NCBI GenBank assembly: GCA_030666035.1
Contig: DAOUYQ010000012.1
Location: 1-11,015, forward strand
Reading direction: 5' to 3'
From: Microcaldota archaeon
GTDB taxonomy: Archaea; Micrarchaeota; Micrarchaeia; Anstonellales; Bilamarchaeaceae
DNA length: 11,015 bases
Shown here: positions 1,376 to 11,015 of the stretch, in pieces
How positions within the stretch are numbered: position 1 is the stretch's first letter
Layout: each line of letters opens with the position of its first letter
Notes under the pieces: model-generated
The model's input: only the letters and a program-made list of their open reading frames with translations
What the model was told of the DNA's origin: nothing
Databases searched by the model: none
Translations under genes and position numbers: made by a program

Positions 1376-1422
1376 CAGATAACAGTTTACAAAAAACGCA
1401 CATGTATGTGAACCTCGTAAAC
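1376..1422. repeat. dyad element 1 (four half-sites, weak first)
   Basis: Half-sites at the standard 9/22/9 spacing: CAGATAA (poor), GTTTACA at 1385, TGTGAAC at 1407, CGTAAAC at 1416. The right-hand pair TGTGAAC..CGTAAAC has a counterpart at 3373-3388, where a different repeat has replaced the left half. Confidence 0.5.
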
Positions 1423-1559
1423 TTTAGGGAAATTGGATACTAAAATATTAGAGTATATATTGTTTACAAAGTTTGCAAAAATGAGCCTAAAATGCAAACT
1501 ATGTCAACTGGTTCCTGTTTAGTTATCAAAGTCAACAAAATTTGACATTATTTGTTGAC
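1415..1559. repeat. long direct repeat A, copy 1
   Basis: Aligns without gaps to 3381-3525 at a constant offset of 1966 bp. I count 19 mismatches in 145 positions, about 87% identity. It carries dyad elements 2 and 3. Read on the minus strand it follows the ATPase gene. Confidence 0.85.
1462..1508. repeat. dyad element 2
   Basis: Half-sites GTTTACA (1462), GTTTGCA (1471), TGCAAAC (1493), TGTCAAC (1502). The inner pair is a perfect inverted repeat, GTTTGCA and TGCAAAC, 15 bp apart. Confidence 0.75.
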
Positions 1560-1568
1560 TCTGTTGAC
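1522..1568. repeat. dyad element 3
   Basis: Half-sites GTTATCA (1522), GTCAACA (1531), TGTTGAC (1553), TGTTGAC (1562). Three of the four agree exactly. It overlaps the end of a short relic frame (1548-1634). Confidence 0.8.
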
Positions 1569-1634
1569 TTTTTGCATCCTCCGTCTAAAATAATTAGATG
1601 ACAAAGAGTTTCCGACAAAATCAACAAAATCCAT
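1548..1634 (-). pseudogene. remnant of an ATPase C-terminus
   Basis: A 28-codon minus-strand frame starts 2 nt after the stop of the intact ATPase and ends in YFRRRMQKVNRVNK. This aligns with the intact protein's end YIIQRMAEVNEVNK, sharing Y, R, M, V, N, V, N and K at equivalent places. Dyad element 3 lies over its stop codon, as dyad element 4 does for the intact gene. I read it as the last codons of a deleted or decayed cassette, not a working gene. Confidence 0.55.
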
Positions 1635-1657
1635 AATTATTTGTTGACTTCGTTGAC
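1611..1657. repeat. dyad element 4, overlapping the ATPase stop codon
   Basis: Half-sites TCCGACA (1611), ATCAACA (1620), TGTTGAC (1642), CGTTGAC (1651). The two right-hand sites are the coding sequence for the last residues VNEVNK of the ATPase (stop 1637-1639), so the element is partly protein-coding. Confidence 0.8.
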
Positions 1658-2833
1658 TTCTGCCATTCTTTGTATGATGTATGTTCGGAAAAGAGTATCG
1701 TCCACAGAATATGTGGCTCTTCTGAGTTTTTTGACTACTCTCTTTTTAACAAGACGCTCCAAATTCACAGCCACTACGTTCTTTTGGAGCGCGTATCTTT
1801 TTTGTGCTATTGAGAATACTTCATGGAAAGACTGGTTGCCTTTATTCTCCGCGAGAACGCTTAACACAAGCTGCTCAGTACTACCCGCAGATTCAAAGAG
1901 ATCATCAAACACTTCTTCTCCAAGAGTATCTAAGGTACGTTCTAGAGCAGATTCAAAAACTTTTGGAGTAACCCTTCCTTTTATCTGATTATTAAAAAGG
2001 TGATTGCACAGAACGTGGACCTCATATAGATGGCCTTCAGTATAATGATATACTTGTTTCATTACCTCTTTAGAAAAACTAACTCCGGAATGTTCCAAAT
2101 AATCTTCTATGAATTTGTATGTCTCAGATTCGGAAAGATTTGTAAGCTTCATTCTGGGAGTAAAATACCTGCCTATGGGATGGTTTCTCTGGAGAAAGGG
2201 CTTCCACCCGTGAAAAGTAGAAGCAAGAACAAAAAGCAACTTTACCTCTTTTACAATTTTTTCTTCTGCGAGTGTATTCCTGATGATAGACATGATAGCT
2301 GAAATTGAAGAAAGATATTGAATATCATCTAAAAGAACAACCAGAACCTTGGTCTCATTCCTGAGATCTGACCAAAGATTTAGCATATTAGAGTAGAAAA
2401 ATGGTTGAGGGTCTCCCCTTACTATCTCTTTTGAGAAATGGAAACCTGTACCTGCTACTGTGACTCCTACTTGAGTAAGATCTCCTGCAAATTTATGGAA
2501 TCTGCTCACATCCAAAGGGAGACGTAGAGCAATCTCTTCAACTAGATAATTAATTCCATCTCTCAGAGACTTTTCTCCTTCAAAATCACGTACCGAAACC
2601 AGGGAACACAGGGAACCTTCTTTTTGGGCAATATTCTTGAATTCCTTTAGGAGACTTGTTTTTCCTGAACCCCAATCTCCAAGCACAATAAAGTGGCTCG
2701 GTCTTCCGGCTTCAGTGTCTTTTAAGGCTTGTTTGAAGAACTTTATTTCTCCTTCTCTCCCAATAAAGAAGCGGGGTTCAATCCCTGATTTTGGTGTAAA
2801 TGGATTATGTATCGAATTCACTGCACCACCCAA
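1637..2833 (-). CDS. AAA-type P-loop ATPase with C-terminal winged helix
   Basis: A 398-residue protein of the archaeal AAA_16/Cdc6-like ATPase type. The N-terminus NPFTPKSGIEPRFFIGRE (10-27) is the usual lead-in. Walker A is GDWGSGKTS (52-60), Walker B VLVVLLDD (163-170), sensor-1-like FVLAST (201-206), and YTEGHLYEVHVLCNHL (264-279) resembles the sensor-2 region. Residues about 318-388 look like a winged-helix DNA-binding domain. It starts at TTG 2833 (GTGAGGA just upstream) or GTG 2821. A TATA box lies at 2933-2940, right after repeat B. The final codons lie in dyad element 4, and remnants of paralogous C-termini lie at 1548-1634, 3112-3264 and 3611-3691. No nuclease or transposase is adjacent. 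The exact function is unknown; a DNA-binding ATPase acting on the flanking elements is my inference. Confidence 0.8.
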   Translation of the reverse strand: MGGAVNSIHNPFTPKSGIEPRFFIGREGEIKFFKQALKDTEAGRPSHFIVLGDWGSGKTSLLKEFKNIAQKEGSLCSLVSVRDFEGEKSLRDGINYLVEEIALRLPLDVSRFHKFAGDLTQVGVTVAGTGFHFSKEIVRGDPQPFFYSNMLNLWSDLRNETKVLVVLLDDIQYLSSISAIMSIIRNTLAEEKIVKEVKLLFVLASTFHGWKPFLQRNHPIGRYFTPRMKLTNLSESETYKFIEDYLEHSGVSFSKEVMKQVYHYTEGHLYEVHVLCNHLFNNQIKGRVTPKVFESALERTLDTLGEEVFDDLFESAGSTEQLVLSVLAENKGNQSFHEVFSIAQKRYALQKNVVAVNLERLVKKRVVKKLRRATYSVDDTLFRTYIIQRMAEVNEVNK

Positions 2834-2932
2834 TTATTCCTCACTCAGTCTTAGTGGACTACCCAACCTTGATCTGAGAAATTTCATGGCCCCCCCTTAT
2901 TTTCATTATCTGGATTTTGAGGTTTATAAAGA

Positions 2933-2940
2933 AGAGGAGG
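2933..2940 (-). promoter_or_regulatory. TATA box of the ATPase gene
   Basis: TTTATAAA with a purine-rich stretch (gaagaggagg on the plus strand) at the BRE side. Transcription would start near 2908, giving a leader of about 75 nt before TTG 2833. The box begins at the edge of repeat B copy 1 and is not shared by copy 2. Confidence 0.55.
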
Positions 2941-2941
2941 G

Positions 2942-3055
2942 TAGGTTTCCGGTGTTTCCACTGGGCCTGTGTGTGGGATGTGTGGGATTGCATAAGCAAT
3001 TCGTCCATGGCAGAAATGCCAGTGAGTTTCTTGCTGGGTATGGTTGGACAGTAAA
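2942..3055. repeat. direct repeat B, copy 1
   Basis: Aligns without gaps to 3265-3378 (offset 323): 8 mismatches in 114, about 93% identity. On the minus strand both copies keep one open frame containing PSKKLTGI, AMDELLMQS and SHTQAQWKHRKP, but the frame runs into unrelated sequence on each side. It contains a small ATTGC/GCAAT hairpin. It sits just upstream of the intact ATPase promoter. Confidence 0.85.
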
Positions 3056-3092
3056 TGCTCTTCGTTACTATGCCTTTCAAATACCTAGAAAA

Positions 3093-3139
3093 ACTGACAT
3101 ACCTGACAAATTCATGTCCTTTTTGTCAGTTCTGCCATC
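3093..3139. repeat. dyad element 5, at the stop of the ATPase remnant
   Basis: Half-sites ACTGACA (3093), CCTGACA (3102), TGTCAGT (3124), and a weak TGCCATC (3133). ACTGACA and TGTCAGT are exact complements. The stop codon of the 3112-3264 remnant is inside the element. Confidence 0.75.
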
Positions 3140-3264
3140 TTTTCCAGAATGTACTCTCTAAAGAGACGATCAGGGATGAAGTAATTCCCTCTTTTAGGGC
3201 GGTGAATTATCTTCTTCTGAAGAAGCCGGTCCAGTAATCTTGGGATAGTCTTTTCAGATAAATC
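3112..3264 (-). pseudogene. ATPase C-terminal remnant (winged helix only)
   Basis: Fifty in-frame codons on the minus strand, including TIPRLLDRLLQKKIIHRPKR and then DRLFREYILEKMAELTKRT, align with the end of the intact ATPase (LERLVKKRVVKKLRR, then DTLFRTYIIQRMAEVNEVNK). Everything upstream, including the P-loop domain, is missing; repeat B copy 2 is joined directly at 3265. The remaining codons have no stop or frameshift, so the loss may be fairly recent. A short protein starting in repeat B (ATG 3381) is possible on paper, but I consider the copy broken. Confidence 0.75.
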
Positions 3265-3378
3265 TAGGTTTCCGGTGTTTCCACTGGGCCTGTGTGTGGG
3301 ATACGCGGGATTGCATAAGCAATTCATCCATGGCATAAATGCCTGTGAGTTTCTTGCTGGGCATGTTTGGACAGTAAA
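3265..3378. repeat. direct repeat B, copy 2
   Basis: Partner of 2942-3055. Its left end is fused to the ATPase C-terminal remnant and its right end interrupts a dyad element, of which only AGTAAAC (3373) and CGTAAAC (3382) remain. Confidence 0.85.
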
Positions 3379-3380
3379 CA

Positions 3381-3525
3381 TCGTAAACTTTAGGGAGATT
3401 GGATTCTAGAATATTAGAATATATGTTGTTTGCAAAGTTTGCAAAAATGAGCCTAAAATGCAAACTGTGCCATATGGTTCCCATTTAGTTCTTAAAATCA
3501 ACAAGATTTAGCAGTATTTGTTGAC
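3381..3525. repeat. long direct repeat A, copy 2
   Basis: Partner of 1415-1559. It contains dyad elements 6 and 7 in the same positions as elements 2 and 3 in copy 1. Several of the differences fall in half-sites. Confidence 0.85.
3428..3474. repeat. dyad element 6
   Basis: Half-sites GTTTGCA (3428), GTTTGCA (3437), TGCAAAC (3459), weak TGCCATA (3468). Compared with its partner, element 2, the first half-site changed from GTTTACA to GTTTGCA and now equals the other two. Confidence 0.75.
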
Positions 3526-3534
3526 TTTGCCATG
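3488..3534. repeat. dyad element 7
   Basis: Half-sites GTTCTTA (weak, 3488), ATCAACA (3497), TGTTGAC (3519), TGCCATG (weak, 3528). It is the partner of element 3. Confidence 0.65.
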
Positions 3535-3591
3535 CCCATATCCTAAAAGCAGGAAAGATGTATTCTCACTGATATGTGCTTCTATTTACCG

Positions 3592-3638
3592 AGTCCGAGT
3601 ACCGACAAACTCACCCTCTTTTTGTTGGTTCTGTCATT
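3592..3638. repeat. dyad element 8
   Basis: Half-sites AGTCCGA (weak, 3592), ACCGACA (3601), TGTTGGT (3623), TGTCATT (weak, 3632). The inner pair matches at six of seven positions and overlaps the stop of another ATPase C-terminal remnant. Confidence 0.6.
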
Positions 3639-3691
3639 TTCTCTATGATACTGCTATCAGAATTGGATGATCTTAATCTGAAAAGGTACAT
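3611..3691 (-). pseudogene. second ATPase C-terminal remnant
   Basis: A 26-codon minus-strand frame ends SIIEKMTEPTKRG before TGA at 3611-3613. This matches the other remnant's YILEKMAELTKRT at 8 of 13 positions. Upstream similarity fades quickly. It is a decayed end of a third cassette. Confidence 0.5.
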
Positions 3692-3726
3692 AAAGGTACA
3701 AAAAATTTTCTTACCTTTTTGTACCT
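3684..3726. repeat. dyad element 9, lengthened variant
   Basis: AGGTACA at 3684 and 3694 (10 bp apart) face TTACCT (3711) and TGTACCT (3720). The half-sites agree well, but the spacing (10 and 26) differs from the 9/22/9 rule of the others. Confidence 0.5.
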
Positions 3727-3767
3727 TTCATTTTTCCTGAGCAAAAACGCCCTAAATAATCGAGTAA

Positions 3768-3805
3768 GTTTACAAAGTTTACAGAAATTTGGTTTTTTTG
3801 TTAAC
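3768..3805. repeat. dyad element 10 (three half-sites)
   Basis: GTTTACA (3768), GTTTACA (3777), TGTTAAC (3799) at exact 9 and 22 bp offsets; no clear fourth site. Confidence 0.65.
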
Positions 3806-3823
3806 TCTAGCTTTATTCTGAAA

Positions 3824-3870
3824 GTCTACAATATCTACAAAAATGTTACTTTTGTGTAGACTCTGAGACT
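3824..3870. repeat. dyad element 11
   Basis: GTCTACA (3824), ATCTACA (3833), TGTAGAC (3855), weak TGAGACT (3864). It has the same size and spacing as element 2, but its half-site is CTACA where element 2 has TTGCA, changed together in all three sites. On the minus strand a frame ending SESTQK closes in it, resembling the other ATPase tails. Confidence 0.7.
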
Positions 3871-4069
3871 TCAAATTTTGTATTGGTGCGGACCATAAAT
3901 CGATTTGTTCCTCTGATTAATCTTTGAGTACTGTGGAGCAGTTTTTCACTGCTCAAAAACCCAACCCGAGAATAAAGAGGAGAAAAAGGCAAGTTATCCA
4001 TGACGCAGGTTCGAAATGCGACAAGCGGAACATTGAGATGCAGAACACGGTGCTAAGAAGCTGGAATAG

Positions 4070-4104
4070 AACACCGAGACCCAAACAGGAAAACGGTGTT
4101 TTTT
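4070..4104 (+). terminator. possible terminator on the plus strand
   Basis: A 7-bp stem (AACACCG/CGGTGTT) with a 17-nt loop runs into T6 at 4099-4104. No plus-strand gene precedes it, so it either ends an unseen RNA or is incidental. Confidence 0.3.
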
Positions 4105-4109
4105 GGTTC

Positions 4110-4145
4110 CACTTTTTGCGTAGCGTAAAACCGCAGTAAAAAGTG
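4110..4145 (-). terminator. probable end of tRNA-Glu transcription
   Basis: Four bases past the tRNA 3' end the minus strand reads CACTTTTT, giving an oligo-T stop. The sequence can also fold back through an 8-bp CACTTTTT/AAAAAGTG stem extended by GCG/CGC. Confidence 0.45.
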
Positions 4146-4148
4146 AAA

Positions 4149-4223
4149 TGCTCCCGCCGGGATTCGAACCCGGGCTACCGGAGTGAGAGTCCGGTGTCCT
4201 TGACCGAGCTAGACTACAGGAGC
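4149..4223 (-). tRNA. tRNA-Glu (anticodon CUC)
   Basis: The minus strand folds as a full cloverleaf of 75 nt. The acceptor arms GCTCCTG/CGGGAGC pair with one G-U. The anticodon stem CCGGA/TCCGG carries loop CTCTCAC, so the anticodon is CTC, reading GAG. The T arm CCGGG-TTCGAAT-CCCGG is perfect. The discriminator base is A and CCA is not encoded. No intron is seen. It is divergent from serS. I looked for a second copy of its 3' end as an attachment site on the repeat side and found none. Confidence 0.95.
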
Positions 4224-4253
4224 TAAATAGTAGAAGAGTTGTATTTAGAGTAA

Positions 4254-4262
4254 TATATTAAA
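4254..4262 (-). promoter_or_regulatory. TATA box for tRNA-Glu, possibly shared with serS
   Basis: On the minus strand this reads TTTAATATA, about 35 bp before the tRNA 5' end, giving a leader of roughly 8 nt. The core is near-symmetrical and could also fire rightwards, starting near 4285 with a leader of about 34 nt for serS. Confidence 0.5.
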
Positions 4263-4306
4263 AGCATGATGTTGGGCATTTAAAGATTTCTGAATAGAGA
4301 TACTGA

Positions 4307-4314
4307 GGAGTGAT
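4307..4314 (+). promoter_or_regulatory. ribosome-binding site that sets the serS start
   Basis: GGAGTGAT is one base away from a full archaeal Shine-Dalgarno sequence and lies 4 nt before ATG 4319. This favours 4319 over the in-frame GTG at 4310, which falls inside the motif. Confidence 0.6.
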
Positions 4315-4318
4315 ATTC

Positions 4319-5596
4319 ATGATTGACAAGGAAATGCTTAGGAAAGAACCTGAGAAAATGCGGAAGGCGATTGGGCTTAGGGGCGGGGATAAGGCTGTGG
4401 TGGATAAGCTTGTGGAGCTTGATGAGGATTGGAGGAAAGAGAAGGGGGTTGCGGATGAGCTTAGGGCGGAGAGGAACAAGCTTGGGCCAAGAATTGCAGA
4501 AGCGAAAAAGAAGGGGGAAGATGCTGGGGAGCTGCTCAAAAAAGGGGAGGAAATTGCAAAAAAGCTGCAGGAGATTGAGAGCAAGGAGGAAGAATTTGAG
4601 AGGAAACGGGTGGGGCTGATGCTTATTATTCCAAACCCCCCGCATGAGAGCGTTCCTGTGGGGGCGGGAGAGGATGAGAATGTGGGGGTGAGAAAGTGGG
4701 GGGAACCTGCAAAGAAGAGCACAGATGTTGAGCCGCATTATGAATTGGGAACTCGCCTGGGGGTAATTGATTTTGAGAAGGGGGCAAAACTTGCAGGGCA
4801 CCGCTTTAGTGTGCTTAAGGGATGGGCAGCGAAATTGGAGAGGGCACTTGCGCAATATATGCTTAAGATGGCTGAGAGTGCGGGGTATACTGAATTTGGG
4901 CTTCCGTATATGGTGAAGGAGGACTGTATGGTAGGGACCGGGCAGCTTCCGAAATTCAGGGCGGATTTGTACCAGACTGAAGAGGAGGAATTGCAGAATC
5001 AATTGTGGCTTATACCTACTGCGGAAGTTCCTTTGGTTAATTTGCACAGGGGCGATGTTTTAGAAGAAGAGAAATTGCCTTTGAGCTACTGTGCATTTAC
5101 ACAGTGTTTTAGGAGGGAGGCGGGGGAATATGGAAGGGACATTAAGGGGTTGATGAGGCAGCACCAGTTTGGGAAGGTTGAGCTTGTGAAGTTTGCGGCT
5201 CCGGAGCAGAGTTATAATGAGCTTGAGGGCTTAACCCTGGATGCGGAAAAGGTGCTGCAGGGGCTGAAGATTCCTTATAGGGTAATTGAGCTTTGCACTG
5301 GGGACTTGGGCTTTGGGGCAAGCAAAACTTATGATTTGGAGGTGTGGATTCCGAGCCAGGACAAGTATCGGGAGATTAGCTCGTGCTCAAATTGTGAGGC
5401 TTTCCAGGCAAGGAGAGCGGATATTAAATTCAGGAAAGATGGGAAAAATGAGTTTGTGCATACTCTAAATGGGAGCGGGGTTGCTGTGGGGAGGGCGCTT
5501 ATTGCGGTGATGGAGAATCACCAGGAAAAGGACGGGATTAAAGTTCCGAAAGCGCTCCAGAACTATATGGAAACGGATTGGATTGGGTTTGAATGA
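4319..5596 (+). CDS. serS: serine--tRNA ligase
   Basis: A 425-residue class II aminoacyl-tRNA synthetase that charges tRNA-Ser with serine in the cytoplasm. Residues about 25-105 form the charged, heptad-like antiparallel coiled coil that grips the long arm of tRNA-Ser. Motif 2 is FRREAGEYGRD from residue 264, with R265, R266 and E267, and motif 3 includes GVAVGRALIAVMENHQ with R392. ISSCSNCEAFQARRADIKFR is also typical. The length and motifs match the common (bacterial and most archaeal) SerRS, not the divergent methanogen type. Its stop TGA overlaps the ATG of the methyltransferase (ATGA), so the two genes are translationally coupled. It is rich in GGG, AGG and GAG codons, as is its downstream partner. 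Confidence 0.96.
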   Translation: MIDKEMLRKEPEKMRKAIGLRGGDKAVVDKLVELDEDWRKEKGVADELRAERNKLGPRIAEAKKKGEDAGELLKKGEEIAKKLQEIESKEEEFERKRVGLMLIIPNPPHESVPVGAGEDENVGVRKWGEPAKKSTDVEPHYELGTRLGVIDFEKGAKLAGHRFSVLKGWAAKLERALAQYMLKMAESAGYTEFGLPYMVKEDCMVGTGQLPKFRADLYQTEEEELQNQLWLIPTAEVPLVNLHRGDVLEEEKLPLSYCAFTQCFRREAGEYGRDIKGLMRQHQFGKVELVKFAAPEQSYNELEGLTLDAEKVLQGLKIPYRVIELCTGDLGFGASKTYDLEVWIPSQDKYREISSCSNCEAFQARRADIKFRKDGKNEFVHTLNGSGVAVGRALIAVMENHQEKDGIKVPKALQNYMETDWIGFE

Positions 5597-6375
5597 TTTA
5601 TTTAACTGGGGAATTGGTTGAAAAATACAAAAATGGAGAAAGGGAGCTATCTCTGGATTTGGGGCGGAATGTAACCATGGTTACACATGAGCTGGACGGG
5701 CTTCCGCTTGATGAGGTTAGGGGGGATTTTGTTTATGCATGGGATGGAAAAGAACTCTGGAAGGTTGCTGTCTTTGATGATGGGTTGTATCGGCTGCGCA
5801 TGATGAAGGGAAAGCCCATATTGGAAATTGATGGATTGCGGATGCATTTGGTTAAGGATTTCAAGGATGTTTTTGATTATTCTAAGTTGGTTGTAAGGGC
5901 ACTAAGAATCAGGCAAAGTGATGTTGTCCTGGATACCTGCATGGGGCTTGGGTATACTGCGATTGCAGCAAGCAAAAAGGCAGACAAGGTTACTGCAATT
6001 GAGCTTTCTCCCGCGGTGCTTGCAATGGCAAAATGGAATCCCTGGAGCAGGGAATTATTTGAGAGGAAACGGATTGAGGTAATTGGGGAAAAGGATTGTT
6101 TTGATTATATTAAAGATGCTCCGGGTGGGAAATTCACAAAAATAATACATGACCCTCCGCGCTTTAGCAAAGCCGGGGACTTGTACTCGCGCAAATTTTA
6201 CACGGAATTGAGAAGGGTTTGCAAAGAAGGGGCGCTCATGTTCCATTATGTAGGGAGCCTGGGGAAAAAGAAAAGGAATATTATGGGGGAAGTTGCAGCG
6301 CGCTTAGAAGAGTGCGGGTGGAAGGTTATGAAAAAAGATGAGCGCCTGCAAGGTATATTGGCAAAAGCCGTTTGA
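5593..6375 (+). CDS. archaeal SAM-dependent methyltransferase (COG2521-like)
   Basis: A 260-residue class I methyltransferase. Motif I is VVLDTCMGLGYTAIAA (111-126), the acidic ribose-binding position is E137 in AIELSP, and AKWNPWSREL (146-155) and IIHDPPRFS (184-192) are hallmarks I associate with the archaeal COG2521 group. The DPP motif sits where NPPY or DPPY lies in N-methyltransferases, so methylation of a base or another nitrogen is plausible, but the substrate is not known to me. Residues 1-100 form a separate N-terminal domain. It is coupled to serS by an ATGA overlap and has no promoter of its own that I can see. A perfect 16-bp palindrome lies inside the gene (5670-5685) and again 7 bp after its stop. 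Confidence 0.85.
   Translation: MIYLTGELVEKYKNGERELSLDLGRNVTMVTHELDGLPLDEVRGDFVYAWDGKELWKVAVFDDGLYRLRMMKGKPILEIDGLRMHLVKDFKDVFDYSKLVVRALRIRQSDVVLDTCMGLGYTAIAASKKADKVTAIELSPAVLAMAKWNPWSRELFERKRIEVIGEKDCFDYIKDAPGGKFTKIIHDPPRFSKAGDLYSRKFYTELRRVCKEGALMFHYVGSLGKKKRNIMGEVAARLEECGWKVMKKDERLQGILAKAV
5670..5685. repeat. 16-bp perfect palindrome, copy 1 (inside the methyltransferase)
   Basis: TGTAACCATGGTTACA equals its own reverse complement. It encodes part of NVTMVTH (residues 26-32). An identical copy is at 6383-6398. Confidence 0.85.
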
Positions 6376-6382
6376 GGGGTTG

Positions 6383-6398
6383 TGTAACCATGGTTACA
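6383..6398. repeat. 16-bp perfect palindrome, copy 2 (after the methyltransferase)
   Basis: Identical to 5670-5685 and placed 7 bp after the methyltransferase stop. It is followed by AAAACTGC and eight T, so it could double as a 6-bp terminator hairpin with loop CATG. Confidence 0.85.
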
Positions 6399-6406
6399 AA
6401 AACTGC

Positions 6407-6414
6407 TTTTTTTT
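6407..6414 (+). terminator. T-run ending the serS-methyltransferase transcript
   Basis: Eight T about 30 bp after the methyltransferase stop, preceded by the palindrome. Oligo-T is the usual archaeal termination signal. Confidence 0.5.
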
Positions 6415-6416
6415 AG

Positions 6417-6448
6417 AAAAAAGAGATAAAAAAAAGGAAAAGAAAAAA
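6417..6448 (-). terminator. T-rich terminator of the translation operon
   Basis: Read on the minus strand, the bases directly after the EF-2 stop are T6, then T8, then T6 with short interruptions. This is a typical archaeal oligo-T terminator, convergent with the one at 6407. Confidence 0.6.
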
Positions 6449-8641
6449 TCAGTCCATAAATGTCTGCACGGTTGGAGGTTCAGGCTTGAGGCCCTTCCTC
6501 TCACGAATCTGCATGACTATTTTGGGCACAAGGTCTTTGGGCACATTCTCATACCCATGGTATTCCTGGTACCAGGTTGCACGGCCCTGTGTTGCCCCAC
6601 GGATTGCATTGGAGAATCCAAAGAGCTCAGAAACAGGCAGGATTGTATGGATTGTATCGGTTTCCCCCTCCTGCTCCATGTTCAGGAGCTGCCCACGCCT
6701 GCCGTTAGTCATGTTGATTACTTCGCCTCCATATTCCTGAGGGGTAGTAATCAAAACTTTTTGCTTCGGCTCCATCAGGGAAACGCCGGCTTCAATCATG
6801 CATGCATAAATGGGCCTCTTAATTGCAGGAATTACCTGTGCAGGGCCCCTGTGCACATTATCCTCGTGCAGGCTTACATCAACAAGCGTTACTTTTACTC
6901 CGGTAACAGTTTCCTGTGCAAGAGGGCCCTTTTTCATTGCTTCCTCAAATGCCTCAATTGCAAGTTCCTGCACTTCATTTAAGTACTGGACACCTTTGGT
7001 GACATCTATGAGCATATTGCTTCCGCAGATGTCCCAAATCCCCTTGGCTTCATCACGGGGCATTCCAAGCTCAACAAGAGCCTGGATATGCTCCTTTCCC
7101 TTGGGTTTGCCCTGTGGGATTTTCCCAAGCTCAATTGCTTCCATAATCTTGGGGTCAAGAGGCTCCACATACATCTTGAACTTGTTGTGCTTGTTTGGGG
7201 ATTTTCCTTCAACCATGTTGGATCTTTTGGTAATTGTTTCCCGGTACACTACAATGGGGGGGGAGGTTACAATGTTGATTCCTTTCTCCTTGGAAATCTT
7301 GTATTCAATAATTTCCAGGTGCAATTCACCCATCCCAGAAAGAAGATGCTCCCCGGTTTCCTGGTTGATTGTAACCTTAAGGGTGGGGTCTTCTTTTGAA
7401 AGCCCCCTAAGAGTTTCAATTAGTTTTGCAAGGTCTTTTGACTCTTTTGCCTCAATGGACTTTGTAACTACTGGTTCGGAAACATGCTTGATGTCTTCGA
7501 ACGGTTCTACTGTATCTGAAGAACTGAGTGTTTCTCCAATGTAAATATCCTTAAGCCCTACAATAGCGCCAATGTTTCCTGCACAAAGGAATTCTGCGGG
7601 AACACGGTCCGGGCCCATGTAGATTCCCACCTGCTGAACCTTGAGGAATTTCTTTTTGGAGAACACATAAATCTGGTCTCCCTTTGCAACCTTTCCGGAG
7701 AAAAGGCGCACTACTGCAACTTCCCCTGCATGCTCATCATATACTACCCCAAAGCAGATACCGATTGCCATTCCATCCTTGTCACAGAGTATCATCTGCT
7801 GTCCCTGTTCGCTCTCCGGGTCTCCTTTCCAGATTGCAGGCATCCTGTATTTCTGGGATACCCTGGGGCTTGGGAGATTTTGGATTACCATCTCAAGGAG
7901 CACATCATCCAGGGGGGACTTGTCCACCAGGAATTGGTGGTTCTCTGCTGCGCATTTTTCGTAAATGTCTTTGAAGGTGATGTTAAATCTCGACATTGAG
8001 GCCGCACTTACCGCCCATTTGTGGAAAGCGCTTCCAAATGCAATGTTTGCATTCTCGATTTTGATTTCCCAGTCTTTCTTGAATTCAGGAGCGCAGTTTG
8101 CAAGGATAATCTTGTTTATTCCGGTAATTACTTTTACGAGCTTCTCCTGCATCGCCGCCTGATCCAGCTTCATCTCGTTGATGAGCCTGTCTACTTTATT
8201 GATGAAAACGATTGGTTTTGCACGCTCTTTGAGAGCCTGCCTAAGGACGGTTTCGGTCTGGGGCATAATTCCCTCAACCGCATCCACCACAAGGCATACG
8301 CCGTCTACTGCACGGAGTGCGCGGGTAACATGGCCCCCAAAGTCCACATGCCCCGGAGTATCAATGAGGTTAATAAGATGCTCTTCCCCCTTATAGTTAA
8401 AACCGAGGGAAATATTTGCAGATTTAATTGTAATTCCACGGGCCTGCTCCTGCTCATCAAAGTCCATCATGCGCTGCTCTCCTGCAAGTTCCTTGGAAAT
8501 AAGCCCGGCCCTTGCTACAAGAGAGTCCGTAAGGGTAGTCTTCCCATGGTCCACATGCGCAATAATTGCGATATTCCGGACATTCTTGGTATTCTCCATG
8601 ATCTTCTGGACTTCTTCTACAACAACTTCTTTCCTGACCAT
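6449..8641 (-). CDS. translation elongation factor 2 (aEF-2)
   Basis: A 730-residue GTPase that moves tRNA and mRNA through the ribosome after peptide transfer. The G-domain motifs are present: AHVDHGKT (residues 28-35), RGITIKSA (switch region), DTPGHVDF and NKVDR. Domains II to V follow, with SGMGELHLEI in domain III. The domain IV tip is LHEDNVHRGPAQVIPA, with H597 as the expected diphthamide residue. The length is normal for the family. I chose ATG 8641 because GGTGA lies 5 nt upstream; GTG 8650, 3 codons earlier, overlaps that site. It is the last gene of the operon, with a poly-T stretch and a possible TATA box in front of it, so part of its expression may be independent. Confidence 0.97.
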   Translation of the reverse strand: MVRKEVVVEEVQKIMENTKNVRNIAIIAHVDHGKTTLTDSLVARAGLISKELAGEQRMMDFDEQEQARGITIKSANISLGFNYKGEEHLINLIDTPGHVDFGGHVTRALRAVDGVCLVVDAVEGIMPQTETVLRQALKERAKPIVFINKVDRLINEMKLDQAAMQEKLVKVITGINKIILANCAPEFKKDWEIKIENANIAFGSAFHKWAVSAASMSRFNITFKDIYEKCAAENHQFLVDKSPLDDVLLEMVIQNLPSPRVSQKYRMPAIWKGDPESEQGQQMILCDKDGMAIGICFGVVYDEHAGEVAVVRLFSGKVAKGDQIYVFSKKKFLKVQQVGIYMGPDRVPAEFLCAGNIGAIVGLKDIYIGETLSSSDTVEPFEDIKHVSEPVVTKSIEAKESKDLAKLIETLRGLSKEDPTLKVTINQETGEHLLSGMGELHLEIIEYKISKEKGINIVTSPPIVVYRETITKRSNMVEGKSPNKHNKFKMYVEPLDPKIMEAIELGKIPQGKPKGKEHIQALVELGMPRDEAKGIWDICGSNMLIDVTKGVQYLNEVQELAIEAFEEAMKKGPLAQETVTGVKVTLVDVSLHEDNVHRGPAQVIPAIKRPIYACMIEAGVSLMEPKQKVLITTPQEYGGEVINMTNGRRGQLLNMEQEGETDTIHTILPVSELFGFSNAIRGATQGRATWYQEYHGYENVPKDLVPKIVMQIRERKGLKPEPPTVQTFMD

Positions 8642-8666
8642 AATCTTCACCGCCTAGAAAACTCAT

Positions 8667-8688
8667 AAATTAAAAAATAAAAAAAATA
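8667..8688 (-). promoter_or_regulatory. poly-T stretch and possible promoter between uS7 and EF-2
   Basis: On the minus strand T8 and T6 runs follow the uS7 stop, then AATTTATGAG. The first could stop part of the upstream transcripts; TTTAATTTA resembles a TATA box and would start EF-2 transcripts near 8645. Confidence 0.35.
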
Positions 8689-8692
8689 GCGC

Positions 8693-9298
8693 TCATCTGG
8701 CGCTTCTTGCCATCCTCTCTGCTTCATCGCGTTTCTTGATTGCAAAACTGTTTTGCACATCATTGTTCGCAGAGTAGAGAATCTCGTCTGCAAGAGATTC
8801 TGAAAGTGAAACCGGCTTATTAAACGACCTCATGAGCGCTGCAAGAGTAATGTTCCTAAGGGCCAGGTCAAGCCTCCTTGAAGAGGATACATCCACTGCA
8901 ATCTGGTAGCTCACTCCACCGTATGATACCCTGGTCACCTCTTCACGGGGTGCCGAGTTCTCAAGAGCATCCACAAGAACCTGGACCGGGTTCTTCTTGG
9001 TCTTTTCTGCAACGATATCAAATGCTTTCTCGACAACCCTGAGGACCTGCTGCTTCTTTCCCTGGAGCCTTCCATGGGTACGGATTACTTTCCCGGAAGT
9101 TTTTTCTCCGGTTCCTCCCCTCATAAGCTTGTTGGTAAGGCGTTCCACCACGTTTACATTATTCTTTGCATGCTGCCTTTTTGCGTGCCTTCCAAATGTG
9201 TGGGCGCGGTAATTTACGCCTTCAAACGAGAGTGCACTTCTGAGGCTCAGGTCCCTGACTTCAACTTCATCCAGTTCGTATTTTCCAAAGAGCTTCAT
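8693..9298 (-). CDS. rps7: small ribosomal subunit protein uS7
   Basis: A 201-residue uS7, which nucleates assembly of the 30S head and lines the E-site. Clear family blocks are RLTNKLMRGGTGEKTSGKV (about 54-72), NPVQVLVDALENSAPREEVT, RVSYGGVSYQIAVDV, RRLDLALRNI, and the conserved tail KKRDEAERMARSAR. The usual VDV-x-PQRR turn reads VDVSSSRR here, a mild change. An upstream in-frame ATG at 9334 would add 12 Arg-rich residues overlapping uS12; I prefer ATG 9298, 7 bp after the uS12 stop, with GAGGT upstream. It lies between uS12 and EF-2 as in other archaea. Confidence 0.95.
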   Translation of the reverse strand: MKLFGKYELDEVEVRDLSLRSALSFEGVNYRAHTFGRHAKRQHAKNNVNVVERLTNKLMRGGTGEKTSGKVIRTHGRLQGKKQQVLRVVEKAFDIVAEKTKKNPVQVLVDALENSAPREEVTRVSYGGVSYQIAVDVSSSRRLDLALRNITLAALMRSFNKPVSLSESLADEILYSANNDVQNSFAIKKRDEAERMARSAR

Positions 9299-9305
9299 TT
9301 GCAAT

Positions 9306-9734
9306 CTACCTCTTGGCCTTCTCCTTCTTCCCATGCCTCATGGCCTGAAGGTCTATGCCATTTACGCTGACAACTTTGTACCTGACTCCGGGAATGGAGC
9401 CCATCTGCCCACGCTGGGAGCCACCTAATCCCGCAATAACAACAGTATCGTGCTCATCAATGAAAGTAATTGCCTTATCCCTTGGGGGGAATGCTGTTAC
9501 AACCTTCCCATTCTTGATGAGCTGTACCTTTACGCACTTGATAAGCCCGGAGTGGGGCTGCTTCTGCTCAAGCACCACTTTCTCCAGCACGATTCCACTT
9601 GCCTGTGGAGCTCCCTCGAGAGGGTCGTACTTATTTTTAAGCTTAAGCCTCTTTCGTTTGTCGCGCTTGCTGAGCCAGCGCTCCCTTTTCCTGGTTCTTT
9701 CTATATTTCTTCCTGCAAATTCACCATTTCCCAT
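9306..9734 (-). CDS. rps12: small ribosomal subunit protein uS12
   Basis: A 142-residue archaeal uS12, a decoding-centre protein of the 30S subunit. The archaeal/eukaryotic signature is plain: GEFAGR near the start, [17 protein letters not shown] (37-53), [16 protein letters not shown] and [13 protein letters not shown]. Several residues expected to be near invariant differ: KQPHSGLIK (58-66) where the family has KQPNSAxRK, FPPRDKA (82-88) where PGDGA or PNDGC is usual, and GSIPG (112-116) where GDIPG is usual. The frame and length are intact, so these look like lineage substitutions, not decay. It starts at ATG 9734 with its own TATA box upstream at 9792-9799. Confidence 0.96.
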
Positions 9735-9791
9735 ATGAACACCAACGAGAATATGACTGTATTCTGTATTCTAAGTTTTAGCCTCGATTTC

Positions 9792-9799
9792 TTTATAAA
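9792..9799 (-). promoter_or_regulatory. internal TATA box ahead of uS12
   Basis: TTTATAAA lies 5 bp after the NusA-like stop on the minus strand. Transcription would start near 9770, about 35 nt before the uS12 ATG. It suggests uS12-uS7-EF-2 can be expressed apart from eL30 and NusA. Confidence 0.55.
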
Positions 9800-9804
9800 C
9801 CTTG

Positions 9805-10245
9805 TTATCCTACTCTCCGAGTCCTCAAATTAAGGTCTGCTCCAAATTTCCGCTTCAGGAAGGCCTTTGCTGCCTTCACACGGATTCCTGCTCTCCCAAT
9901 TGCGATTCCCCTCTGGGAATCCGGGATCGTGAGGAATATCATCTTCTGCCCTGGAGCCTCCCTGAGCTCATAGGCAAGAATGTCAATATTATTGAAAAAT
10001 TTCTTCAGGAACTCCTCGGGCGCACCCGCATCCATTGAAATGAGGACATTCATATTGTTGAGCTTCTGCTTCAGCTTCAGGATATTTGCGCCTTTCTTGC
10101 CAATTGCTTTCCCCAAGCTGGATTCATCCACCAGGAAAACGATTCCATCGCCTACTTTTTCCATATCCCTGGGTATCAATCCTGTAACAGACTCGAATAT
10201 ACTAATCAGCTTAAGGTCGTCTCCTGTAATTTCCACGAGCTTCAC
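9805..10245 (-). CDS. nusA: NusA-like KH-domain transcription factor
   Basis: A 146-residue archaeal NusA-like protein made of two KH RNA-binding domains and lacking the N-terminal and S1 domains of bacterial NusA. The GxxG-type loops are GKAIGKKG (45-52) and GIAIGRAG (113-120). It is thought to act with RNA polymerase on transcripts, fitting its place in the polymerase/translation cluster. It starts at GTG 10245, whose GTGA overlaps the eL30 stop, so it is translationally coupled. The length is usual for archaea. Confidence 0.93.
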   Translation of the reverse strand: MKLVEITGDDLKLISIFESVTGLIPRDMEKVGDGIVFLVDESSLGKAIGKKGANILKLKQKLNNMNVLISMDAGAPEEFLKKFFNNIDILAYELREAPGQKMIFLTIPDSQRGIAIGRAGIRVKAAKAFLKRKFGADLNLRTRRVG

Positions 10246-10676
10246 TTCTTCTTTTCGAATTCCAATATATTGGAAACGCCTTCTTCATAAACCGCAAGCA
10301 CGGAAACCGGGAACGGTTTTCCGCAGATTGAACCAAGCTCAATGCTTGTTCCAGGAAACATGACTAAGGGGATTTCCGAGATTTCCCCAAACCTCCTCAC
10401 ATCTTCTGCAAGTGAAGGCGGGACATTTGATGCAATTACCGCAAGTTTAATGTTTCCCATAAGAATATCCTTTATTCCCTTTCTTGAGCCAAAACCAACC
10501 TTTCCACTCTCCACTGCAAGGCGAATCGCACTGGAAAGGGGATTTTCCTTCTCTTTCTTGGATTTCCTTTTCCGGATTACTTTGTGCTTTGATTTTAGCC
10601 GCGTTTTAGTTTCAGCCACTTCAGTCACCGTGGTTCCTCCGGCCAATTTGGCTTTCTCAACCTTTTCTTCTTCCAT
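10242..10676 (-). CDS. rpl30e: eL30 (L7Ae/L30e family) with a long basic N-terminal extension
   Basis: The L30e fold spans residues about 46-140: SSAIRLAVESGKVGFGSRKG, IKLAVIASNVPPSLAEDV, EIPLVMFPGTSIELGSICGK and FPVSVLAVYEEG. It is a large-subunit ribosomal protein of the kink-turn-binding superfamily. Archaeal eL30 is usually about 100 residues; this one has some 45 extra at the N-terminus, with KTRLKSKHKVIRKRKSKKEK strongly basic. The first residues MEEEKVE and their ribosome-binding site GAGGTAAT are repeated twice more upstream, so the extension may come from local duplication. The place next to NusA-uS12-uS7 supports eL30. A start nearer the domain is possible, but I see no better ribosome-binding site. 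Confidence 0.88.
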   Translation of the reverse strand: MEEEKVEKAKLAGGTTVTEVAETKTRLKSKHKVIRKRKSKKEKENPLSSAIRLAVESGKVGFGSRKGIKDILMGNIKLAVIASNVPPSLAEDVRRFGEISEIPLVMFPGTSIELGSICGKPFPVSVLAVYEEGVSNILEFEKKK

Positions 10677-10688
10677 ATTAATTACCTC
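10656..10688 (-). repeat. eL30 start module, copy 1 (the real start)
   Basis: The ribosome-binding site GAGGTAAT (minus strand, 10681-10688) and ATG plus codons for MEEEKVE. The 21 bases 10656-10676 are identical to those at 10802-10822 and 10894-10914. Confidence 0.85.
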
Positions 10689-10822
10689 TATCTTAGCATG
10701 ATTGGACTAAAAGAAAAGGGTGAGAGCTGTGGACGAAGGCCACTCAACCGAGTTGGTAAACGAAGTGGACCAACAAGGGCTGTGGTCAAAGACCACTCAA
10801 TCTCAACCTTTTCTTCTTCCAT
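10688..10822 (-). CDS. possible 44-codon leader frame ahead of eL30
   Basis: It starts MEEEKVEIEWSL on copy 2 of the start module with GAGGTAAT at 10827-10834, and stops with TAG at 10688-10690, overlapping by one base the ribosome-binding site of eL30. Its later sequence (PLRLPTRLSGLRPQLSPF) does not look like a folded protein. It could be a leader peptide that couples translation, or just duplicated debris. Confidence 0.3.
   Translation of the reverse strand: MEEEKVEIEWSLTTALVGPLRLPTRLSGLRPQLSPFSFSPIMLR
10713..10779. repeat. eL30 leader repeat, long segment copy 1
   Basis: Matches 10949-11015 at offset 236 with 3 mismatches in 67. It contains the arms GTTGGT/ACCAAC and CAAC/GTTG, so the RNA can fold on itself. 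A further hairpin, GTGGTC/GACCAC with a 3-nt loop, follows it. Confidence 0.85.
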
Positions 10823-10834
10823 TTATATTACCTC
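10802..10834 (-). repeat. eL30 start module, copy 2
   Basis: The same 21-base start sequence and the same GAGGTAAT as copy 1. The bases 10827-10868 also match 10919-10960 with one mismatch. Confidence 0.85.
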
Positions 10835-10836
10835 AT

Positions 10837-10914
10837 TTAACATTGTTTGGGCTTGGGAAAAGGGTGAGAAAAGAAATCTCTGATTTCTCGGATCTCAACC
10901 TTTTCTTCTTCCAT
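10837..10914 (-). CDS. possible 25-codon leader frame ahead of eL30
   Basis: It starts MEEEKVEIREIRDFF on copy 3 of the start module and stops with TAA at 10837-10839, just before the next ribosome-binding site. The same frame is open upstream to the window edge, so this may instead be the tail of a longer frame. A GAAATC/GATTTC hairpin lies within it. Confidence 0.3.
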   Translation of the reverse strand: MEEEKVEIREIRDFFSHPFPKPKQC

Positions 10915-10926
10915 AGCTATTACCTC
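10894..10926 (-). repeat. eL30 start module, copy 3
   Basis: The identical 21-base start sequence with GAGGTAAT at 10919-10926. Starts of the three modules are 146 and 92 bp apart, neither a multiple of three. Confidence 0.85.
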
Positions 10927-10948
10927 ATGTAACATTGTTTGGGCTTGG

Positions 10949-11015
10949 GAAAAGGGTGAGGGCTGTGGACGAAGGCCACTCAACCGAGTTGGTAAACAAA
11001 GTGGACCAACGAGGG
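10949..11015. repeat. eL30 leader repeat, long segment copy 2 (cut by window)
   Basis: Partner of 10713-10779, truncated by the window end, so the array probably continues. Confidence 0.8.

Follow-up and report, generated by a model that had tools for sequence, protein, structure and literature searches.

Why should a single archaeal ATPase gene lie among a series of repeated DNA elements that share one layout and yet change their repeated word from one element to the next? The question is raised by an 11,015-bp stretch of a Microcaldota archaeon genome (contig DAOUYQ010000012.1; G000:C20 in our numbering), called the window below, whose source assembly measures 0.95 Mb and is 82% complete. 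Each element spans 47 bp and consists of four 7-bp words whose starts are 9, 22, and 9 bp apart, a direct pair followed by an inverted pair. Our sequence comparisons support the view that a rare, sporadically distributed AAA+ ATPase with a winged helix resembling that of BlaI and MecI bears such a four-half-site element at one boundary of its gene, and that the exact pattern occurs mainly at these ATPase genes in the genomes scanned.

We scored elements at the spacing 7-2-7-15-7-2-7 by comparing all six pairs of words (maximum 42, cut-off at least 28). Between positions 1300 and 4000, five sites reached the cut-off, against a mean of 0.03 and a maximum of 1 in dinucleotide shuffles (n = 60), and positions 4000-11015 contained none. 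The initial annotation had described this geometry and named a shuffle of the same composition as its control; that control, now run, was nearly free of such elements, and the geometry is borne out. A relaxed scan, which takes the best three of the four words at exactly 9-22-9 (maximum 21, threshold 17) and yields a score without a shuffle control, returned eight elements, at 1376, 1462, 1522, 1611, 3093, 3428, 3768, and 3824. It also carries some chance matches: further hits fell at 2601, at 3084 (offset by 9 bp from 3093), and at 3796 (overlapping 3768 and 3824), as well as beyond the array at 6398-6399 and 6945. Three degenerate or variant elements (3488, 3592, 3682) and one half element (3374-3388) were also recognized. 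The earlier total of about eleven elements holds, although no more than five qualify as strict four-site elements at the cut-off and part of the total consists of duplicates. Two long direct repeats account for these, and because 1408-1563 and 3374-3529 are 86% identical, the elements at 3428 and 3488 are copies of those at 1462 and 1522.

Agreement of words within elements and divergence between them, as first described, is real: over the first four bases, words W1 and W2 agree at 2.69 of 4 positions within an element versus 1.47 between elements (13 hand-listed elements). A 12-base core pattern, allowing at most one mismatch, was found in the window's own assembly (82% complete) at four places, all within the array, while the reversed-pattern control gave one. 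Elements also recur in pairs 86-89 bp apart, in the window (1376-1657), in locus L016 (3258/3345), and in locus L052 (2038/2125); the archaeal pairs share a word, and the Nitrospira pair (L052) differs in word.

These elements belong to the ATPase, because the stop codon of the intact gene (1637-1639) falls within element E4 (1611-1657; element names as in Table 1) and three more elements lie on other ATPase 3′ ends. E5 overlaps what remains of another, truncated ATPase gene, namely its winged-helix tail (profile E 7e-16), and the tails at E6 and E7 were each equaled by none of 300 shuffles. The tail ELTKK at E8 was equaled by 10 of 300, and the same comparison against shuffles revealed no significant ATPase tail at E1, E2, E3, E2′, E3′, or E9. 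The four ATPase 3′ ends in the window bear different words, namely GTCAACA, ACTGACA, ACCGACA, and AGGTACA. The evidence that the elements exist and are associated with the ATPase gene is strong.

What might bind them? The Pfam matches of the ATPase above the cut-offs were AAA_16 (45.3 bits; cut-off 32.6), KAP_NTPase (31.1; 20), and BrxC_BrxD (29.6; 22.2), with ATPase_2 below its own (27.7; 33.2). When the alignment profile was searched against PDB, the only matches at E of at most 0.01 were BlaI/MecI-type repressors (1sd4, 1sd6, 1okr, 1p6r), and PF03965, which we take to be the Penicillinase_R domain, is present on homologs P0002, P0018, and P0037. The half-sites of 17 hand-listed elements yield the consensus RNYKACA (R 0.89, Y 0.74, K 0.76, and A/C/A 0.88/1/1), the phase being set on ACA so that the last three letters were chosen and the first four were free. 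This equals the published CopY half-site (PMC7253601), where the CopR-CopY operator consensus appears as RNYKACANNTGTMRNY and BlaI and MecI are said to use TACA/TGTA. Elements at gene edges, a BlaI/MecI-like winged helix, and a CopY-like half-site support the initial choice of the winged-helix ATPase as candidate binder, and we consider it a good inference that this winged helix recognizes the elements.

Judged by sequence identity, divergence is much faster in the winged-helix region than in the ATPase domain. Homologs P0003 and P0004 are 92% identical in the ATPase domain and 37% in the winged-helix region; the values are 90% versus 48% for P0003/P0008 and 87% versus 47% for P0004/P0008. A change of specificity would be expected to look like this, as might drift of a less constrained domain, which we count as less likely because the divergence is paired with changing words. 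The hypervariable region lends support to the earlier suggestion of a multimer whose specificity changed, as do four Elusimicrobia-type relatives of 297-299 amino acids (L056, L062, L070, L081), which end after the ATPase/lid part without a winged helix and show an element in none of the four cases; such a multimer would presumably bind the elements through its winged helices.

A protein search returned 80 proteins, the window's own among them. Species genomes, when scanned, yielded 47 loci, spread over Omnitrophota, WOR-1, WOR-3, Nitrospira, Woesearchaeota, Methanosarcinales, ANME-2, Elusimicrobia, and others. The gene-boundary analysis took 37 of the 47, leaving out L073, L082, L084, and L087-L093 as cut or weak; the start of L075 is uncertain. 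With the window geometry unchanged, we found an AACTACA element in Woesearchaeota (L049, score 37), an ATTTACA element in WOR-1 (L051, 36), TGTAACA elements before the start in Methanosarcinales (L050, 32) and ANME (L078, 35; its gene, although truncated to 198 amino acids, has the element), and a GTCAACA element in WOR-3 (L053, 28). Restricting the search to cases whose best three words all end in ACA or GCA and score at least 17 left boundary-zone elements in 9 of 33 family loci (L047, L049, L050, L051, L052, L053, L074, L076, L078), against 0.11 expected from eight matches in the rest of the same loci. E4 of the window misses this filter by a single letter (GTCAACG). Unfiltered, at a score of at least 18, there were 9 matches against 0.19 expected, with L054 counted through A-rich words. 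Among 168 geometries compared, 9/22 ranked first (9 of 28 non-window loci); 9/13 (8 loci) and 9/31 (4) represent the same elements shifted by one half-site, and the remainder gave at most one locus each, 158 of them none. Scanning relatives with the motif, as initially proposed, did find elements at ATPase genes across phyla, but at the 5′ rather than the expected 3′ end in some members.

In a tree of 37 proteins, including seven metagenomic ones that have no DNA context here, the window fell into a 100/100 clade with nine winged-helix-bearing genome loci, itself included. Elements are clear in seven of these (the window, L047, L049, L050, L051, L052, and L053), weak in L048, and absent from L054. 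Members of the sister clade with elements, all before the start, are Omnitrophota L074 and L076, with L077 added by eye. Three homologs of 538-548 amino acids (P0066, P0070, P0073) carry PF00072, a receiver domain, besides the ATPase part, which hints at signal control in these three; the source names P0066 CheY-like. The WOR-3 locus (L053:183-5661) reads RadC, ATPase with overlapping start, element, and a fused type I restriction-modification-like gene. Distant relatives in Bathyarchaeia and Hadesarchaea (L083, L085, L086) directly follow a small ribosomal-protein-like gene, as seen by eye.

Exact sites are rare. In about 20 Mb from the 10 genomes behind element-bearing loci, the exact core pattern occurred at 8 sites, 6 of them at ATPase genes, and its reversed control at 2. 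Five of the six were already known elements; the sixth led to a previously unseen, decayed ATPase copy in Woesearchaeota (L226, G302:C49:25980-26590), with its middle missing and internal stops, and an element directly before its start (ACTTACA/ACTTACA/AATCACA/AATTACA, score 35). The two other sites lie on G305:C132, where we read no ATPase gene, and on G301:C125, in a genome with a single family match, which lies on C36. Distant paralogs in G302 and G304 had no ACA-type element, and an A-rich match before one paralog start (G302:C36:41294, score 28) was taken as low complexity.

The family itself is sporadic: 2 of 301 genomes of the window's phylum, its own included, have a match at E of at most 1e-40, the second being a genome of the same genus (G004), and in the phylum of the Woesearchaeota locus only L049's own genome does at 1e-55 (1 of 371). 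Two close relatives of the ATPase (P0004, P0012) and the same-genus contig L047, which is the G004 contig and was counted once, carry the name Candidatus Micrarchaeota archaeon. In WOR-1, gene and element stand within a sugar operon, and because the 0.9-1.5 kb ahead of the WOR-1 neighbor gene contains no ATPase in any of the four relatives that hold that neighbor, the ATPase gene moves somehow; its flanks could not be aligned by eye to the exact insertion ends, and no target duplications were found. A viral origin of the ATPase was considered and rejected, as none of 87 peptide-pattern matches in viral contigs was confirmed as a relative. A TACA-based scan of viral contigs gave at least 120 stretches, 80 of which made loci, and no open reading frame of at least 100 amino acids in these 80 loci matched the ATPase profile; the spacers of the five best-scoring pattern matches among those listed are palindromic, and these matches resemble plain hairpins.

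The history of the locus can be read against its genus, in which 2 of 6 genomes, the window's own and G004, have an ATPase match at E of at most 1e-15. The G004 protein is 64% identical to that of the window, and its gene ends inside a GTTTACA element that overlaps the stop, a fifth case of an ATPase ending in an element and the counterpart of E2. Another element, a perfect 42/42, follows 87 bp beyond; it is the counterpart of E1, with nearly the same spacer. The window retains this G004-type pair, E1/E2 (86 bp apart), beyond its own pair, E3/E4 (89 bp apart), and we infer that an earlier ATPase gene, whose end lay at E2, gave way to the present one. In G004, a tyrosine recombinase gene overlaps the ATPase start, and a third Orc1/Cdc6 gene lies at this locus (the other five genomes of the genus have two), as does a small open reading frame without a Pfam match. 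The G004 locus looks like an integrated element. The corresponding site beside tRNA-Glu holds other genes in G001, G002, and G005, and in G003 the tRNA has the opposite orientation on a contig ending 244 bp past it.

Taken together, we think it fairly probable that the ATPase is specific for its own locus, that its winged helix and site have changed together, and that it has been replaced serially beside tRNA-Glu. Each element would be the cognate DNA site of the adjoining ATPase gene, on which an ATP-dependent oligomer would place four winged-helix domains as two head-to-tail pairs facing each other, so that the ATPase would recognize its own locus and little else. Winged helix and half-site word would change together with the ATPase domain kept, leaving each copy blind to the sites of its predecessors, and repeated replacement or duplication of the module would have left elements on truncated ATPase 3′ ends. 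The role would then be that of a self-recognition switch of a mobile gene rather than of a regulon controller, and would combine autoregulation with a specificity akin to immunity or incompatibility; this is the most likely role and also the least certain step. Autoregulation fits the 5′ sites and the rarity of the pattern, and immunity or incompatibility fits the turnover of words at one tRNA site. A bolder version, in which a selfish one-gene module with its own address has crossed archaeal and bacterial phyla, repeatedly changing winged helix and site, and the window is a stack of replacements with dead addresses kept, is plausible but tentative, and we would not yet count on it.

Several observations weigh against this account. 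The PDB profile match is weak (E 0.0018-0.008) and covers one domain only (positions 307-378), and in WOR-3 L053 the winged-helix region matches AbiEi instead (PADLOC, 25 bits). The link between helix and word comes from few pairs, and the word GTCAACA is common to the window and L053, whose helices are not obviously similar. Within the clade, the Omnitrophota L048 element is weak (four-site score 28, failing the ACA/GCA filter), and L054 has a winged helix but no passing element, its scan match being A-rich low complexity; by eye it shows only a tandem TTTTTGTC pair. In the sister clade, most homologs from Omnitrophota lack an element, although the aligned ones have a winged helix, and none of 11 distant members (24-30% identity) has an ACA-type element, four of them carrying AT-rich dyads before the start. 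Elements are mostly 3′ in the clade, yet 5′ in L050, L078, the decayed Woesearchaeota copy, L074, and L076, and for this reason their position dictates no single role. The 10 genomes scanned were picked because their ATPase loci already showed elements, and four of them gave no exact site. A duplication of the tRNA-Glu 3′ end, sought as exact repeats of at least 12 bp in the window and L016, was not found, though the far border may lie outside. Finally, in five of six elements tested, the arms form RNA hairpins that outscore those of shuffled sequences (z −3.1 to −6.4; L051 −1.7).

This last result invites a reading of the elements as RNA hairpins or transcription terminators, which we nevertheless regard as highly improbable. 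A hairpin has no need of the tandem repeat within each arm, and yet W1 and W2 agree; intrinsic terminators would be hairpins at gene 3′ ends generally, whereas the exact pattern is rare in genomes, lies mainly at ATPase genes, and stands before start codons in several loci. The five viral matches with palindromic spacers are a different thing. Ordinary autoregulation, in which the ATPase represses or activates its own or a neighboring gene and nothing more, has more in its favor: the sites keep to one gene boundary and are seldom met away from it. They stand immediately ahead of the start codon in L050, L078, and G302:C49, whereas the 3′ sites of L049, L051, and L053 lie about 66-71 bp ahead of the next same-strand start; the receiver-domain homologs also fit. 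The 3′ element of the window, however, lies between convergent genes, where no promoter is expected, and autoregulation alone leaves unexplained an array with ATPase tails and several words. On balance, we hold it unlikely as a complete account.

Two further alternatives were weighed. The elements could be the origin of replication, or the partition site, of what was once a plasmid; the ATPase would then be its initiator or partition protein, and the words would mark incompatibility groups. Iteron-like direct repeats, a low-scoring match to the orc1/cdc6 model (28 bits against a cut-off of 181), and the gathering of recombinase, ATPase, elements, small open reading frame, and third Orc1/Cdc6 at one place in G004 speak for this, but replicon genes are absent among ten neighbors tested in other phyla, a plasmid collection gave four weak matches (23-41% identity), and no relative was confirmed in viral contigs, which makes a plasmid origin quite unlikely. 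They could instead be recombination sites of a single-gene cassette, with new ATPase genes entering beside old ones through a tyrosine recombinase acting in trans. Gene and site do form a compact unit, clipped gene ends are preserved with their elements in the array, the D2b/D1b repeat junction falls inside a half element, the G004 recombinase overlaps the ATPase gene, and the WOR-1 gene sits in an operon whose next gene is preceded by no ATPase in the four relatives compared above. However, the same ten neighbors include no recombinase, 15 bp makes a long spacer for crossover by a tyrosine recombinase, target duplications were not found, and the exact insertion ends could not be aligned by eye; we rate a cassette as very unlikely. 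Serial turnover of a self-recognizing ATPase is the reading that we prefer.

The features of the window are collected in Table 1. An adenosine deaminase gene lies to the left of the ATPase gene; to the right follow the array, tRNA-Glu(CTC), and a further gene, presumably for seryl-tRNA synthetase. Upstream of the ATPase gene, a GGTTTCCGGTGTTTCCACTG-like motif (window 2939-2962; also L095, L096, L097, L102) stands beside a TATA-like sequence and recurs in several genomes of the genus; it holds two GGAAAC copies 9 bp apart and is perhaps the site of another regulator. The first 24 bp of repeat D2 recur in the genus. We considered D2 as a replication-origin box and rejected it, as its 21-base motif (two mismatches) occurs in only 3 of 6 genus genomes, once or twice in each. 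Near the window end (10640-11015), imperfect repeats around AACCTTTTCTTCTTCCAT and GTGGACGAAGGCCACTCAACCGAGTTGG were seen by eye.

Table 1. Coordinates of the ATPase gene, its remnants, the elements, and other features of the window
Feature	Position	Strand	Remarks
Intact AAA+ ATPase gene, 398 amino acids	1637..2833	-	AAA_16-like domain and C-terminal BlaI/MecI-like winged helix (about residues 307-378)
Element E1, GTTTACA family, left outer site lost	1376..1422		
Element E2, GTTTACA/GTTTGCA	1462..1508		
Element E3, GTCAACA three times	1522..1568		
Element E4, GTCAACA	1611..1657		Overlaps 3′ end of intact ATPase gene; 89 bp from E3
Element E5, ACTGACA	3093..3139		Overlaps 3′ end of ATPase remnant 2
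Remnant 2, winged-helix tail of second ATPase gene, ending in FREYILEKMAELTKRT and stop	3112..3252	-	Winged-helix profile E 7e-16
Right half of second E1-type element	3374..3388		At D2b/D1b repeat junction
Element E2′, GTTTGCA three times, duplicate of E2	3428..3474		
Element E3′, GTCAACA, degenerate (two good sites), duplicate of E3	3488..3534		
Element E6, ACCGACA/ACCAACA, degenerate (three partial sites)	3592..3638		Remnant 3 tail IIEKMTEPTKRG and stop, on minus strand
Element E7, AGGTACA family, 42/42 but 10-20-10 spacing	3682..3728		Remnant 4 tail RLFRAFLLRK, minus strand
Element E8, GTTTACA	3768..3814		Tail ELTKK weakly supported
Element E9, GTCTACA	3824..3870		Without significant ATPase tail
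Direct repeat D2a	2942..3055		Upstream of intact ATPase gene; begins with motif recurring in genus, adjoins TATA-like sequence
Direct repeat D2b, 93% to D2a	3265..3378		Upstream side of remnant 2
tRNA-Glu(CTC)	4149..4223	-	Array on its 3′ side, likewise in G004

If the bolder version is true, the window holds a fossil record of specificity change with the old addresses still in place. Repeated change of a recognition domain together with its site, with earlier sites present, would offer a naturally occurring series in which the evolution of DNA-binding specificity can be followed. A little-known AAA+ ATPase family is tied to a defined candidate DNA site, which makes its biochemistry directly testable, and should the module prove mobile, archaea and bacteria would both hold an element made up of one gene and its own address.

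The part of the open-access literature covered by our search contained no description of such a gene-site pair, and the known systems each share some of its traits. Among P-loop families, AAA_16, KAP, BrxC_BrxD, and ATPase_2 are linked to the ATPase by the Pfam matches, with weak PADLOC matches to BrxD (17-24 bits in P0001, P0007, and L049) and SngB. The likeness to BREX is partial, as Pfam BrxC_BrxD covers only positions 10-85 of 414, NCBIfam BrxD scores 20-24 bits against 350 in P0007 and L049 and is not matched in P0001, and no BREX gene was named among the ten neighbors tested. Orc1/Cdc6 initiators also combine AAA+ with a winged helix, and their sites adjoin the protein's own gene; their origin boxes are unlike the element here, the match of P0001 to TIGR02928 (28.4 bits) is far below the cut-off of 181.3, and replicon genes were lacking among those ten neighbors. 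BlaI, MecI, and CopY share with the ATPase the C-terminal profile match, the half-site RNYKACA, and half-site starts 9 bp apart. CopY sites are a single inverted pair, an operator type bound by a dimer, whereas the elements here have four half-sites as two direct pairs facing each other across a 15-bp center, the winged helix is fused to an AAA+ ATPase, and the word drifts between loci. In integron gene cassettes, one gene carries a variable inverted-repeat attC site at its 3′ end, and cassettes form arrays, much as gene and element do here. No integrase-like open reading frame was noticed by eye in the window. Unlike attC, however, the site here is made of repeated protein-type half-sites, and the cassette gene itself encodes the likely binder.

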